64,000 bases of DNA from Mesotoga infera (GTDB taxonomy: Bacteria > Thermotogota > Thermotogae > Petrotogales > Kosmotogaceae), in the NCBI RefSeq assembly GCF_900157305.1, contig NZ_LS974202.1, forward strand, positions 1,426,001-1,490,000, in the 5' to 3' direction. The notes under the pieces are model-generated. The model was not told the origin of the DNA, did not search any database, and worked only from the letters and a program-made list of their open reading frames with translations. Shown in pieces: positions 3,641-11,183 of this stretch. Position 1 is the stretch's first letter. Every line of letters begins with the position of its first letter. A program made the translations under genes and the position numbers.

Positions 3641-4019
3641 CCCAAATTCAGTTAACACCTTAACACAAACCCTGTTCACGCTTCGCTTTTTACCCGGTTT
3701 TTTCCATTTTTCATTCACCCGACCTATTGTTTGATCCTCTCTCGCAAGTATCCTCATAAAAACAATCTCAGAACTTCGTACGCTATGCTTATTGTCGCAT
3801 CACTTTGCGTTTCTTCGATTTGGGTTAACTCCATTTTGCGGAGTATCCCGATCGGTTTATTCAGTTTCGTCGATATGCCCCTTAGAACTTTAATGACACG
3901 CATTAACTTCAGCGTAATTTCATCTCGTCGGAGCGATTGTATACCATCTGCGTCCCTTTTTCTTTCCTGTTCTAGCTTTTAGACTTATTTTGAATAATTC
4001 CTGTACAGTTTACATTGAC
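3641..4019. other. Gap before CRISPR leader, with a tiny possible ORF remnant
   Basis: No convincing gene. On the minus strand 3754-3903 reads as a 49-residue frame with protein-like composition (MRVIKVLRGISTKL ... IAYEVLRLFL). The same frame is open upstream of its ATG back to about 3978, without a start codon or Shine-Dalgarno. It may be the tail of a decayed gene; I do not recognise a family. Confidence 0.35.
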
Positions 4020-4205
4020 CCGACAGAAAAAAGGTCGATCGACTTTCAGTAAATGGCATTATTTGCTACCGGCAGAATGCCCGGGACAGCCCTGGTCCGC
4101 TTGACTCCTCCTAAAAGAAACCTTTTACCGAGGGCGCTGGGCGGGGTTCAGGAGCGATTTGACTTTACCCCCTGTAATCCTGTATAATTTTTTGTAATAA
4201 AGGCT
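4020..4205 (+). promoter_or_regulatory. CRISPR leader
   Basis: Sequence immediately 5' of the first repeat, becoming AT-rich toward it (GTATAATTTTTTGTAATAAAG). I assign it as the leader for three reasons: it carries a promoter pointing into the array, the repeat's 3' end (ATGGAAAC) has the form of the 8-nt 5' handle of mature crRNAs when read on the plus strand, and the only strongly degenerate terminal repeat is at the opposite end. There is no cas gene nearby to confirm the orientation. Confidence 0.65.
4159..4188 (+). promoter_or_regulatory. Promoter for pre-crRNA transcription
   Basis: TTGACT (4159-4164) and a perfect TATAAT (4183-4188) with an 18-bp spacer. The predicted start is near 4195, about 10 bp before the first repeat. 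A transcript from here would meet the insertion sequence after only the first 19 nt of repeat 1. Confidence 0.7.
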
Positions 4206-4225
4206 GTTGAGCGAGAACCATAGTC

Positions 4226-5320
4226 TCAACTTATGCACTTCGAGTTAACAAAGCGAGGAAGAAGGAAGTGGATAGAAGAGTCGCTAGCGGAAGAGCTTCG
4301 AGCTAATTGGAAGAAGTAATCGAATTTGATCAGTTCAAGGAAATCCCTGAGAGAGACCTGGTCTTTGACAGAGCGATAGAAGTTGGCGATCATCCATGTA
4401 GTGAAGGCAAGCTGGACAAGCTCTACATGCTTCTGAAAACTGGTAGAGGAGAAGACCTGAGCCTTGAGACCGAAGTTCTGCTTGACTGCTTTGAAGTAGG
4501 TCTCGATGTAGTTTCTCTTCCTATAATGCTCAAGGATCTCCCAATCGGTCAGAGAAGTATCGCTTGAGAGGATGATTCTGTTCTCTTGGTCTGTGTTATG
4601 AAAGACAAGCTTGACAGTGGCATTGTTGTATTTGGGTATCTTCACAATGATAGAAGAGAGACCGCGAGTTTTGTCTCTCAATTTGGACAGATGGAGCTTG
4701 CGCCCCTGAAAGATAACATTCAGTACAGGATTGAGTCTTCCGATTACTGTGAAACCCATTTCCATAGCCTTCAGAAATATCTCCGAGCAGAGTATTCCTC
4801 CATCCATCATGAGGATAGTATCTTTGAAGGGGATTCTCTCGAGCATTCGAATGAACTGGTCTGTGAGATTCTCTTCGTCTCTCAAAGAGGAGAAGAGAGG
4901 GAAGTAGAGTTTATCTTTCACCCAGCCTATAGCGCTCAAGAGAGAGACTCCACTCACGATTCTATTCTCTATGGTTGAGTAGAAGCTCCCGAGATTCTCG
5001 ATTCTCTTTCCTCTCCTCTTCATGACAGTCTCGTCCAGAATGATGTACTTGAACTCGAGAAAATTCTCCTGGAGGAATCTAGAGATGTAATCTACTCTCG
5101 CGTATGAAAGGTCTCTTGTGGAGAGTGACTGAGAGCTCAACATTCTCGAGATGGATGACTGAGAAGAAGAACAGAAGGGGGCCAGTCTGCTGGTGTTCTT
5201 ATGAGCGGACAGGAAGAGGGCACAGGAATACCCTTCAACAAACCTTCTCTGCTCTATACGTAGGAAGCGAACTGAACCGATGACATCCGAGATAATCTGT
5301 GATATATTCGTTGTGGGCAT
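4226..5320 (-). CDS. IS4-like DDE transposase (copy 1)
   Basis: Single-ORF transposase of the IS element. The catalytic triad is readable: D in YIILDETVMKRRG, D in TILMMDGGILCSE, and E in the Y-2-R-3-E-like HYRKRNYIETYFKAVKQ signature of IS4-type enzymes. I favour the ATG at 5320, which follows AAGGATGATTTC; the frame is also open to an ATG at 5371 (381 residues) with a poorer ribosome site. Both starts lie in the two arms of a 13-bp inverted repeat (5317-5373). Copy 2 differs by about nine residues over the 381-residue frame. Its 3' end lies within 2 bp of the element's terminus. Confidence 0.93.
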   Translation of the reverse strand: MPTTNISQIISDVIGSVRFLRIEQRRFVEGYSCALFLSAHKNTSRLAPFCSSSQSSISRMLSSQSLSTRDLSYARVDYISRFLQENFLEFKYIILDETVMKRRGKRIENLGSFYSTIENRIVSGVSLLSAIGWVKDKLYFPLFSSLRDEENLTDQFIRMLERIPFKDTILMMDGGILCSEIFLKAMEMGFTVIGRLNPVLNVIFQGRKLHLSKLRDKTRGLSSIIVKIPKYNNATVKLVFHNTDQENRIILSSDTSLTDWEILEHYRKRNYIETYFKAVKQNFGLKAQVFSSTSFQKHVELVQLAFTTWMIANFYRSVKDQVSLRDFLELIKFDYFFQLARSSSASDSSIHFLLPRFVNSKCIS

Positions 5321-5373
5321 GAAATCATCCTTTCGTAAGGTTTCGTCACCACGAATATACGATGATTTCATGC
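5317..5373 (-). promoter_or_regulatory. Stem-loop covering the transposase start (copy 1)
   Basis: A perfect 13-bp inverted repeat, GCATGAAATCATC (5317-5329) and GATGATTTCATGC (5361-5373), with a 31-nt loop. The two candidate ATG codons sit in opposite arms and part of the AAGGATGAT ribosome site is paired. In RNA this should hide translation initiation. It is conserved in copy 2. Confidence 0.65.
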
Positions 5374-7622
5374 CTTTTTCAATGACCCTGTCCTATTTCC
5401 TTCTTTTGGTTAAGTCAAAATGCATAAGTTGAGATAGTGGGATGGAAACGCGTTCTTTTCAATGAGGTACATAAGCAGAATAGAGTTGAGCGAGAACCAT
5501 AGTGGGATGGAAACATTGTGTTCAGGTATTTCGGGAAGTTGTAGGCTGCGTTGAGCGAGAACCATAGTGGGATGGAAACTCGGTATGGATATAGTGGTTC
5601 CATATCTGTTGTCCGCGTTGAGCGAGAACCATAGTGGGATGGAAACATTATAAGACCCAGTGCAACACCTACTGCCGTGCCGAGTTGAGCGAGAACCATA
5701 GTGGGATGGAAACTAATTGCCCTTCATCTGTACTTCTCATCGTGCCATCTCGTTGAGCGAGAACCATAGTGGGATGGAAACTGAAGTATTGTGCTTGCCT
5801 GTTGCCCAGTTGCCTCGAGTTGAGCGAGAACCATAGTGGGATGGAAACAGTGCAAGGTTACGGACATTGAGAGGGCTTGGGGCGAGTTGAGCGAGAACCA
5901 TAGTGGGATGGAAACAGACAATAAACTCATCTGATAATTCTTTCTCTGCCTTGTTGAGCGAGAACCATAGTGGGATGGAAACTAAGTTAAAACTTAAATA
6001 TTTTAAGTTTTTATATAAGTTGAGCGAGAACCATAGTGGGATGGAAACTTATAAATGGGGATAATGTCTAACGTGTCAGAATTGGTTGAGCGAGAACCAT
6101 AGTGGGATGGAAACTAAATGTTAACCCCTATCTGGGCTAGAGCAGTCTCGTTGAGCGAGAACCATAGTGGGATGGAAACATTACAATTGACCCTTAGAGC
6201 AAATTAGTACGAGTTGAGCGAGAACCATAGTGGGATGGAAACGGATACTCCTTTTTTAAGAGGTCAACATCTACTCTAGTTGAGCGAGAACCATAGTGGG
6301 ATGGAAACTTGTATGTGCCGCCGTACTTATCCCCGTCGAACACGGGTTGAGCGAGAACCATAGTGGGATGGAAACGAACCACCAGAAACAAACGGATTTG
6401 CAAGCACAGGGTTGAGCGAGAACCATAGTGGGATGGAAATATGTATGCTCCGAGCCACTTTGTGTTCTTGAATTCGAGTTGAGCGAGAACCATAGTGGGA
6501 TGGAAATAGTTTTGGAGTTATAGAATCTCTCCATGATTTTATATGTTGAGCGAGAACCATAGTGGGATGGAAATTAGATACCGCACTGGCTAGTGGATTC
6601 GTTTGTTAGCAGTTGAGCGAGAACCATAGTGGGATGGAAACGCAAGAGTCCTCAACACGTACCTCCTATTCAGTGGTTGAGCGAGAACCATAGTGGGATG
6701 GAAACCCGAGCCTGAAAGGCGAGATAATTCTCAATTCATGTTGAGCGAGAACCATAGTGGGATGGAAACGCGAAAGAACCGCGCAACGCATCGTAAACAC
6801 GCTTAGTTGAGCGAGAACCATAGTGGGATGGAAACCCATTATAAATGGGGATAATAGCCAAGGTATCATGAGTTGAGCGAGAACCATAGTGGGATGGAAA
6901 CATAGACTTTATTATGAAAGCTTCTTTCCCGTCCGATAGTTGAGCGAGAACCATAGTGGGATGGAAACGTTATTGAACTTAACATCAATCGGGGGCAATT
7001 CTTCCGTTGAGCGAGAACCATAGTGGGATGGAAACGTCCCTTCCAGTTCCAGTACAACCAGCCATAGGTTACGTTGAGCGAGAACCATAGTGGGATGGAA
7101 ACTTGGCTGGAAGTCTTCAATTTCGCACGCTGAGTTCCTAGTTGAGCGAGAACCATAGTGGGATGGAAACTTGAACTTTCTGCTCCAGTGATCGGTTGTT
7201 GGTATGGTTGAGCGAGAACCATAGTGGGATGGAAACTTTTCGTCTTCAAGTTTTATTTTTGCCCATATATTGGTTGAGCGAGAACCATAGTGGGATGGAA
7301 ACGGCATTTCCAAGAATCTTTCACCAGCAAGACTCTTGTTGAGCGAGAACCATAGTGGGATGGAAACCCGCTCAAGAGCCGCCTTGTCACTTCACGGGCT
7401 GAAAGTTGAGCGAGAACCATAGTGGGATGGAAACAAGTTCTCCCACGGCTCACCTGCGAGGAGCCTTCTTGTTGAGCGAGAACCATAGTGGGATGGAAAC
7501 GCGCCTGCTCGGAGCTGCCAATAACCAAAGCTCCGGTTGAGCGAGAACCATAGTGGGATGGAAACATTTTTGTGCCGCGCTGAGTTTTACTTCAAGCTAT
7601 CCGTTGAGCGAGAACCATAGTC

Positions 7623-8717
7623 TCAACTTATGCACTTCGAGTTAACAAAGCGAGGAAGAAGGAAGTGGATAGAAGAATCGCTAGCGGAAGAGCTTCGAGC
7701 TAATTGGAAGAAGTAATCGAATTTGATCAGTTCAAGGAAATCCCTGAGAGAGACCTGGTCTTTGACAGAACGATAGAAGTTGGCGATCATCCATGTAGTG
7801 AAGGCAAGCTGGACAAGTTCGACATGCTTCTGAAAACTGGTAGAGGAGAAGACCTGGGCCTTGAGACCGAAGTTCTGCTTGACTGCTTTGAAGTAGGTCT
7901 CGATGTAGTTTCTCTTCCTATAATGCTCAAGGATCTCCCAATCGGTCAGAGAAGTATCGCTTGAGAGGATGATTCTGTTCTCTTGGTCTGTGTTATGGAA
8001 GACAAGCTTGACAGTGGCATTGTTGTATTTGGGTATCTTCACAATGATAGAAGAGAGACCGCGAGTCTTGTTTCTCAGTTTGGACAGATGGAGCTTGCGC
8101 CCCTGAAAGATAACATTCATCACAGGGTTGAGTCTTCCGATTACTGTGAACCCCATTTCCATAGCCTTCAGAAATATCTCCGAGCAGAGTATTCCTCCAT
8201 CCATCATGAGGATAGTATCTTTGAAAGGTATCCTCTCTAGCATTCGAATGAACTGGTCTGTGAGATTCTCTTCGTCTCTCAAAGAGGAGAAGAGAGGGAA
8301 GTAGAGTTTATCTTTCACCCAGCCGATAGCGCTCAAGAGAGAGACACCACTCACGATTTTATTCTCTATGGTTGAGTAGAACTTCCCGAGATTCTCGATT
8401 CTCTTTCCTCTCCTCTTCATGACAGTCTCGTCCAGAATGATGTACTTGAACTCGAGAGAATACTCCTGGAGGAATCTAGAGATGTAATCTACTCTCGCGT
8501 ATGAAAGGTCTCTTGTGGAGAGTGACTGAGAGCTCAACATTCTCGAGATGGATGACTGAGAAGAAGAACAGAAGGGGGCCAGTCTGCTGGTGTTCTTATG
8601 AGCGGACAGGAAGAGGGCACAGGAATACCCTTCAACAAACCTTCTCTGCTCTATACGTAGGAAGCGAACTGAACCGATGACATTCGAGATAATCTGTGAT
8701 ATATTCGTTGTGGGCAT
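7623..8717 (-). CDS. IS4-like DDE transposase (copy 2)
   Basis: Same family and length as the copy at 4226-5320, with an intact D-D-E set (YIILDETVMKRRG, LMMDGGILCSE, RKRNYIETYFKAV). Compared with copy 1 it differs at about nine positions, for example E to Q and L to I in the N-terminal extension, D to N in SDVIGS, and NF to YS in LQENFLEFK. Neither copy shows a stop or frameshift, so both may be active. The start at 8717 is chosen as in copy 1; the frame is open to 8768. Confidence 0.93.
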   Translation of the reverse strand: MPTTNISQIISNVIGSVRFLRIEQRRFVEGYSCALFLSAHKNTSRLAPFCSSSQSSISRMLSSQSLSTRDLSYARVDYISRFLQEYSLEFKYIILDETVMKRRGKRIENLGKFYSTIENKIVSGVSLLSAIGWVKDKLYFPLFSSLRDEENLTDQFIRMLERIPFKDTILMMDGGILCSEIFLKAMEMGFTVIGRLNPVMNVIFQGRKLHLSKLRNKTRGLSSIIVKIPKYNNATVKLVFHNTDQENRIILSSDTSLTDWEILEHYRKRNYIETYFKAVKQNFGLKAQVFSSTSFQKHVELVQLAFTTWMIANFYRSVKDQVSLRDFLELIKFDYFFQLARSSSASDSSIHFLLPRFVNSKCIS

Positions 8718-8770
8718 GAAATCATCCTTTCGTATGGTCTGATCACCACGAATATACGATGATTTCATGC
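8714..8770 (-). promoter_or_regulatory. Stem-loop covering the transposase start (copy 2)
   Basis: The same 13-bp inverted repeat as in copy 1 (8714-8726 and 8758-8770). The arms are unchanged although the loop differs (ATGGTCTGATC against AAGGTTTCGTC). Conserved arms with a diverged loop support a functional structure. Confidence 0.6.
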
Positions 8771-9043
8771 CTTTTTCAATGACCCTGTTCTATTTCCTTC
8801 TTTAGGTTAAGTCAAAGTGCATAAGTTGAGATAGTGGGATGGAAACACTGCAATATAGTCTTCTGGTATTTTTCTCATCTTTTGTTGAGCGAGAACCATA
8901 GTGGGATGGAAACGACGGATATTGAGCGGAAGATTTGCGAATTCCTTGGTTGAGCGAGAACCATAGTGGGATGGAAACGTTCTTCCAGAGAACCAGTATT
9001 ATGACCGCCACAAGTTGAGCGAGAACCATATTGGGATGATAAG

Positions 9044-9183: not shown

Positions 9184-9766
9184 GTGCGCCCGGCATGGTA
9201 CACAACTATAGGGTGAAAGACCCGAATGTGGGGAGTCAAAGAAGCATTAGCCAGAGGCAAGGGTGTCACTGGTAACGGTGAATCTGAAGGAAGCCCGAGG
9301 CAAAGTCCGGAACTGAACGAAAGTGAACCAGAGATGGCCGTTACAGAGGGTAACCCTGCGAGATAAGGGAAAGCCCTGACTCCAGCTGTAAAGGTTCGGA
9401 TGGCAGGATTCGGATGAAAGTGGTGTATCTTACCCGGGGAAGTCCTCATGAGTCCGAAAGGGGTAACCGTTAGCAAGGAGGAGATCCAAGTTAAGGGAAA
9501 GCTCAGGAGGATGGCAGATGAACCCGTAGTAGTGAAGAACCTCTCCGAAAGGAGAAGGGACCTTGGCTATAAGCCAAGGGGGTGATGAGGAGGTCGAAAG
9601 GCTCCATCACTTGCGAAGGGGAGAAGGATCGAAGAAATGTGATCGGAAGACAGTGAAGAGACTTAGGTCAGACAGTTAAAGACAAGGTACATATTCCCGG
9701 GAGGGTAGAGAAGCCAGTCATTAATTGTCGCAACAATATCTGAGGCTGGAGCTGTTGGAAGGGAGC

Positions 9767-11052
9767 ATGCAGGAGAAAGAGATGAAGTATTACAGTCTAA
9801 TCGACAAAGTCTATTCGAAGAAGAACCTATTGAAAGCCTATCACAGGGTAAACTCCAACAGAGGAGCTCCTGGGATAGACGGAGTAACCGTAAAATCATT
9901 CGGGGAGAAACTCCTTGAAGAAATCGAGAGATTATCCGAAGAAATCAAGAGCGGTGAGTACATGCCCATGCCACTCAGGAGAGTAGAAATCCCAAAAGCA
10001 GATGGTAAAACAAGGCAATTGGGAAGTACCTACTGTGAGAGACAGGGAGGTACGAACAATACTCTCAAGGAGATACTGGAACCTATATTCGAGGAAAGAT
10101 TCCATCCTCCAGTTACGGTTACTGAAAGGGAAGAAATGCCTGGCAGGCGGTGGAGAAGGCGAAAGCTTTTGCATCCAAATACGGTCTGTGCAATGTAGTG
10201 GAACTTGACCTGAGCAAATGTTTCGACACTCTGGATCATGAGAAGATAATAGACTCCGTAGCAGAGAGAGTGAGTGATGGAAAGATACTCAAACTCATAC
10301 GCGCAATGCTGAAGAGCGGAGTAATGGAAGATGGAGTCTGGAAGGCAACAGAAACTGGCAGTCCACAGGGTAGTGTAATAAGTCCCCTGCTGGCGAACAT
10401 CTACCTGGACGAGTTCGACCAGAAGATGAAAGCCAGAGGAATAAGGATAGTCAGATATGCAGACGACATATTAATCTTCTCGAAAACCCAGGAAGAAGCC
10501 CGAGAGTTTCTGGCAATCGCGATCAACATACTGGAGATTGACATGAAGCTCAAGGTCAACAGAAACAAGACGAGAATCACAACACTGGAGGAGGGCTTTC
10601 ACTTTCTTGGCTTCGAAATAAAAGGCGAGAGAGTTGGGATAGAGAAATCCAGATTGAAAAGGTTCAAGGGAAAGGTCAAGGGACTTACAAGAAGGAACCA
10701 GAGCACACCGGTAAAGGAAATAGTGAAAGAGCTAAATCCACTGTTGAGAGGATTTGCCAGCTATTTCAGGATAGTAGACTTACAATCTTCCTTGAGAGGG
10801 CTTTTGAGCTGGATAAGGAGAAGGCTTAGAGCCATCATACTACACCAGTGGAAGAGCACAAAGAAACTGAACAGAGTCCTTAGAAGGGCTGGATGGGAAG
10901 AGAAAGTCAATTTGAGAATGAACAAATGGCGCTCTTCTCACACAAAAGCAGTCAATTACGCCATTCCCAACAGGTTCTTTGAAGAGATGAACTTATTCGA
11001 TATGACATCGTACTATCATCCCCTGTCGAAGTATCCGATACTCGATCCATGA
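9767..11052 (+). pseudogene. ltrA: Group II intron reverse transcriptase/maturase, frameshifted
   Basis: N-terminal RT blocks are intact (RVNSNRGAPGIDGVTV, MPLRRVEIPKADGKTRQLG). After 10018 the protein hops among frames: PTVRDREVRTI in one, LKEILEPIFEERFHP in another, KGKKCLA in a third, before settling at about 10150 in EKAKAFASKYGLCNVVELDLSKCFDTLDH, which runs uninterrupted to the stop. Later blocks are intact, including the catalytic RYADDILIF, SPQGSVISPLLANIYL and the maturase region near the C-terminus (AVNYAIPNRFFEEMNLF). There are about five small indels, and TAC-TGA replaces an expected Arg codon, all within 130 bp. The ATG at 9767 follows GGAAGGGAGC. The protein cannot be made in full from this sequence. 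Confidence 0.9.
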
Positions 11053-11084
11053 GCCGTGTACGAGGCCCGTACGCACGGTTCTGT
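11051..11084 (+). ncRNA. Group II intron domain V
   Basis: 34 nt beginning GAGCCGTGTACGAGG and closing with ACGCACGGTTCTGT. It folds as the standard bulged hairpin, with AGC as the catalytic triad and a tetraloop-like tip. Its first base overlaps the TGA stop of the maturase ORF. Confidence 0.9.
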
Positions 11085-11120
11085 GAGAGGACGAGGGGCT
11101 CCGCCCCTCTCCTACTCGAT

Positions 11121-11183
11121 GTGCGCCCGGCATGGTACACAACTATAGGGTGAAAGACCCGAATGTGGGGAGTCAAAGAAGCA
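11121..11183 (+). repeat. 3'-truncated second copy of the intron 5' end
   Basis: 63 bp identical to 9184-9246, starting at the exact base after the end of the full intron (CTACTCGAT then GTGCGCCCGG). After AAAGAAGCA the identity stops (GCGGATAATG against TTAGCCAGAG). It is a tandem intron remnant. Confidence 0.92.

Follow-up and report, generated by a model that had tools for sequence, protein, structure and literature searches.

As far as the excerpted text of a review goes (PMC9048733), adaptation in type III CRISPR systems is independent of a PAM where this has been tested. According to excerpts of Vink et al. 2021 (PMC8482600), the coding strand is matched by 65% of type III and 55% of I-B spacers. 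For the III-B system of Marinomonas the excerpted part of Silas et al. 2017 (PMC5576922) describes a spacer uptake that is partly oriented, with selection being of importance as well. A search of the literature on Mesotoga and its proviruses yielded no paper.

The array analysed here is located in the genome of Mesotoga infera (G000) within a stretch of 64,000 nucleotides, hereafter the window, which corresponds to G000:C1:1426001-1490000 of the chromosome of 2,965,660 bp. The following features, given in window coordinates, are relevant to its interpretation:

3986..4205, plus strand: leader region; over 220 nt it shares 99.1% identity with the leader of a second array with the same repeat (G000, 2.926 Mb)
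4206..9043, plus strand: orphan CRISPR array of 36 spacers with the repeat GTTGAGCGAGAACCATAGTGGGATGGAAAC; its leader side is at 4206, and its terminal repeat, at 9014-9043, is degenerate
4224..5433, minus strand: insertion sequence of 1210 bp encoding a DDE_Tnp_1 transposase of 381 aa; splits the leader-proximal repeat, with a 4-bp duplication (ATAG)
6049..6084, plus strand: spacer 10, leader-proximal; the reverse complement reads NSDTLDIIPIY
6441..6477, plus strand: spacer 16, 36/37 match to IMGVR_UViG_3300013883_000003 (8170-8206), antisense to an ORF of 206 aa
6836..6871, plus strand: spacer 22, offset from spacer 10 by 3 nt; the reverse complement reads HDTLAIIPIYN
7621..8830, minus strand: second copy of the insertion sequence; splits a later repeat at exactly the position hit in the first one, again with the duplication ATAG

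The orientation of the array is fixed by its leader, since this matches the leader of the array at 2.926 Mb. Spacer 10, being leader-proximal, is therefore probably the newer of the pair and spacer 22 the older one. No cas genes were detected near the array among the window ORFs scanned. At present the array is orphan and probably inactive. Six full-length copies of its insertion sequence, with a protein identity of 98-100%, are present in the genome, and the element also interrupts cmr6 of the III-C locus (G000:C1:1324708-1325850), where it is accompanied by a CCTG duplication. Further features were noted in and around the two arrays. Spacer 9 (5983-6018) is very AT-rich and partly self-complementary, with an inverted self-match of 10 nt. 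Soon after the terminal repeat, at 9184-11183, the reverse transcriptase of a group II intron stands between two copies of a 63-nt sequence; it seems to be split into two overlapping ORFs, with a Pfam match in the second only. Another such reverse transcriptase (group II intron, TIGR04416) was found within the second array (L043 3307-4632; G000:C1 2.928 Mb).

The initial annotation of the window had pointed out that spacers 10 and 22 share sequence, and the comparison of all spacers bears this out. Both contain the 17-nt run TTATAAATGGGGATAAT, in positions shifted by 3 nt, while the runner-up run shared by any pair of the 36 spacers on either strand has 10 nt and the longest run in 60 composition-preserving shuffles of these spacers has 12. 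A chance likeness of two unrelated spacers, which might be considered for short spacers with an AT-rich run in common, is very improbable in view of these runs. Over the overlap of 33 nt, 26 positions are identical and seven differ, all seven within the first half of the encoded peptide, whereas the final 17 nt are the same. The opposite-strand reading that had been proposed (DTLDIIPIY and DTLAIIPIYN) proved to be distinctive too, as SDTLDIIPIY / HDTLAIIPIY in the reverse complement is the sole frame of six that is open in both spacers. The accompanying statement that the spacers differ mostly at third positions holds as a weak majority: in this frame four of the seven differences fall on third, two on second and one on first codon positions. 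Three of the five changed codons are synonymous; of 20,000 random substitution sets, 0.9% gave at least this result.

Both spacers are bounded exactly by perfect 30-nt repeats. This, together with the offset of 3, makes it unlikely that one of them is a copy of the other that decayed later within the array. Arrays of the genus do rearrange, as identical spacers recur in the sister genome G024, but a copy would need a 3-nt shift and seven substitutions in 33 nt between flanking repeats that remained perfect, and we regard such an origin as most improbable.

Repeats differing by at most three mismatches from the window repeat flank a III-B locus in G024, which belongs to the same genus; its genes encode Cas10b, Cmr1, Cmr3, Cmr4, Cmr6 and CARF proteins. 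Judged by these repeats of the sister genome, the window array may be placed in a type III-B class. The III-B locus of G024 additionally contains a DpdF-like helicase, annotated as a possible alternative Cas3, and a CARF-CYTH-HD protein (L045 12760-15855 and 9484-12714), beside which two CARF-RelE/DUF2103-like proteins are encoded. No III-B effector was identified in the window genome itself, where the Cas10 profile matches a single place, the Cas10c gene of a III-C locus. Since this only Cas10 belongs to III-C, the array has lost its III-B effector or never had one in this genome, and we therefore do not assign it to a complete III-B system. No Cas1 was found in the genome other than the one at 1.3217 Mb, which is part of a I-B locus (cas6, 8b, 7, 5, 3, 4, 1) followed by the III-C locus (cmr1, cmr6, cas10c, cmr4, cmr5, cmr3). 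Next to this region lies an array of 132 repeats with a different repeat, GCTTCCAGACTACCTATGAGGAATTGAAAC.

For a comparison of the two kinds of arrays we compiled 569 distinct spacers, 315 from arrays of the window repeat class (class A; G000, G024, G028 and G029) and 254 from I-B arrays (G000 and G024); the 199 I-B-type repeats of G027 and the 134 of G028 lie outside the I-B set, and 128 of the 188 I-B-type repeats of G024 were taken. A provirus contig of G025 (L066) is matched exactly by a class A spacer of G024, and relatives were retrieved from IMG/VR by means of the terminase. The antisense peptide NTKWLGAY of window spacer 16 led to IMGVR_UViG_3300013883_000003 (G123; L251/L252), a phage contig of 36 kb which is matched by 16 I-B spacers of the window genome (E ≤ 0.001), including four that align in full at 100%. 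Because it is targeted by these 16 spacers as well as by one spacer of the window, this contig very likely represents a phage of the host or of a close relative. In total, 63 of the 569 spacers match 22 phage records (506 kb) at E ≤ 0.001, compared to one match with reversed spacers.

Re-sampling of drifting phages takes place in the genus. Two I-B spacers of G024, numbers 104 and 114, match one site of a phage (G104:11316-11352) at 88% and 100%, respectively, and I-B spacers 1 and 23 of the window genome are 92% alike at offset 0. Spacers 10 and 22 appear to be the class A counterpart of this I-B re-sampling, on the same strand and with a shifted start. Among the spacers compiled, 23 overlapping pairs were detected (seven I-B, eleven class A, five mixed), all of them same-strand. 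All eleven class A pairs are on the same strand; nine of them, including spacers 10 and 22, have a non-zero offset of 3 to 21 nt and two have offset 0. The seven I-B pairs, in contrast, all have offset 0 (Fisher p 0.002), these comparisons being based on few pairs per class that partly stem from related genomes.

The two classes also differ in the sequence next to their protospacers. A 5' TTA or TCA accompanies 37 of the 55 best matches of I-B spacers to the 22 phage records but one of the eight of class A (Fisher p 0.005; small numbers, with one of the eight class A matches belonging to a spacer of the window array). Class A arrays lack a fixed protospacer-adjacent motif. The initial annotation had named a common adjacent motif as confirming evidence for the pair; this check is unsuitable for the window array, because a fixed motif is seen in the I-B arrays of the genus and not in the class to which this array belongs.

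Calls of the gene strand vary with the ORF rule, and we use the longest non-overlapping ORFs for the main figures. By this rule, seven class A matches in the 22 records are antisense and one is sense, as against 26 antisense, 25 sense and four intergenic matches of I-B spacers. The class A excess of seven in eight has a two-sided binomial p of 0.07, and the difference between 7:1 and 26:25 is not significant (Fisher p 0.07). The eighth class A match, called sense, is covered by two ORFs (158 and 156 aa) that overlap each other, and its call is doubtful since these are nearly equal in length. Different rules led to different figures. Across 182 loci at E ≤ 0.01, class A gave five antisense, one sense and one unclear match and I-B gave 11, 12 and two, respectively. 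In a further analysis (the 22 records, E ≤ 0.001), four class A matches were antisense and four unclear, compared to 27 antisense, 19 sense and nine unclear matches for I-B. A codon model trained on these phage sequences, which called 149 of 165 fragments of 36 nt correctly, favoured the antisense reading for 212 of the 315 class A spacers (28 of the 36 in the window array) versus 144 of the 254 I-B spacers. These shares (67% and 57%) are close to the 65% and 55% given in the excerpts of Vink et al. 2021 (PMC8482600). The purine content did not separate the classes as a test of strand (0.470 and 0.472), which speaks against a simple interpretation. That class A arrays of the genus take up or retain spacers in a strongly strand-specific and PAM-free manner, although no Cas1 was found in the window genome except the one of the I-B locus, which uses a PAM, appears doubtful at present; if it were true, a single lineage would follow, or would once have followed, two rules of capture in parallel against the same phages.

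The initial annotation had further proposed to search the peptide and both spacers in viral, plasmid and metagenomic databases; the searches made here gave no matching gene. No protospacer of spacers 10 and 22 was detected in IMG/VR, in a GTDB genome collection, in 103 Thermotogota genomes or in 35 whole phage records, using exact as well as degenerate patterns. The degenerate peptide patterns had no match in IMG/VR, among the 103 Thermotogota genomes they recovered only the window itself, and the degenerate pattern with three mismatches had none in the 16, 10 and 9 whole phage records. Phages and plasmids yielded no blastn match to the array, a tblastn search with the joined peptides was of low power because of the short query, and the window spacers matched nothing but the array itself in ten genomes of the genus. 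The exact 17-mer occurs at six loci in IMG/VR, where DTLxIIPIYN is absent. Several candidates were rejected. L001, in which the run falls in a glycosyltransferase-like reading (VSIIIPIYN), lacks D-T-L. A loosened pattern found DTFFVIPVYN at two IMG/VR loci, both times within a stretch of 29 residues, and also matched short unrelated ORFs of two genome contigs. The peptide YGWxYWNW of spacer 25 was found at four IMG/VR loci, all in short frames only, and is attributed to chance.

These searches bear on the question of whether the two spacers derive from two different genes, or from paralogues in one element, which merely share a conserved motif xIIPIYN. The identity is concentrated in the 17 nt encoding IIPIY(N), and this motif occurs in unrelated proteins as well, namely the glycosyltransferase-like reading of L001 and the portal proteins of L193 and L142. 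However, five codons are identical at the DNA level with no synonymous change, and D-T-L has been kept through synonymous changes, a likeness closer than expected of unrelated genes, so that an origin from two genes seems improbable.

A refinement that is compatible with a single drifting target is that this is the gene of the portal protein (SPP1 gp6-like) of a tailed phage, the target site being a motif of the type [IM][IMF]P[IV]Y[DN]G. The top ORF for a profile of the two peptides in 2.25 million residues was HDALTMMPVYDG, a portal protein (PF05133) of L193, whose score was reached by three of 150 shuffled profiles, and the best sites of L142 and L170 fall at the same alignment column. The best site was at this column in three of 13 portal-like ORFs, including L193, which had prompted the idea. 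Against the proposal, the best site lay at the column in one of ten further portals drawn from a spread listing, which is no better than shuffled profiles, since 276 of 1000 reach at least one; in the related Mesotoga phage G123 another sequence stands at this column, and L142 has no PF05133 match. Altogether the portal gene is retained as a weak lead.

Taking the evidence together, we consider it likely that spacers 10 and 22 are independent captures from nearly the same place in one drifting phage gene, made free of a PAM, with crRNAs complementary to the mRNA, and kept in a III-B-class array that is now orphan. Related phages would have diverged between infections, and one coding gene would have been captured twice, independently. 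Both spacers would have been stored in the orientation whose crRNA pairs with the mRNA of the gene, in an array of a class which in the sister genome serves an RNA-targeting type III-B (Cmr) system. Since capture would not depend on a PAM, the second spacer would start 3 nt away and not at the same base. The initial annotation, which had suggested repeated sampling of one coding locus that drifted between encounters, is supported in part and was probably right in substance: the offset of 3, the perfect repeats, the phage match of spacer 16 and the re-sampling in the sister species agree with it, while the protospacers of the pair themselves were not found.

An orphan array of a Mesotoga-like genome is thereby linked to identifiable phage contigs, and the phage sequences show that, as phages drift, the spacers directed at one site are renewed. 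Furthermore, the genus has two contrasting classes of arrays, one combining offset 0, TTA/TCA and the lack of a strand preference, the other a variable offset and an apparent antisense excess. Through this contrast it becomes testable whether capture or selection is the source of the strand choice.

Compared to known systems, spacers 10 and 22 represent ordinary CRISPR biology in an orphan array of a type III class. With PAM-free, transcript-complementary type III-B arrays the window class shares the flanking Cmr1/3/4/6 and Cas10b genes in G024, the lack of a fixed 5' motif and an apparent antisense excess, but the window genome differs from them in having no III-B effector, a single Cas10 of III-C, and an array interrupted by two insertion sequences. 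The I-B array of the same host (GCTTCCAGACTACCTATGAGGAATTGAAAC, 132 repeats) resembles the window array in holding spacers against G123 and differs from it in its repeat, its TTA/TCA motif and the absence of a strand preference. As in the described repeated sampling of a drifting protospacer, the pair combines diverged sequences from a nearly identical site within one array; the I-B pairs of the genus start at the same base in seven of seven cases, with most matches lying beside TTA or TCA, whereas spacers 10 and 22 are shifted by 3 nt.
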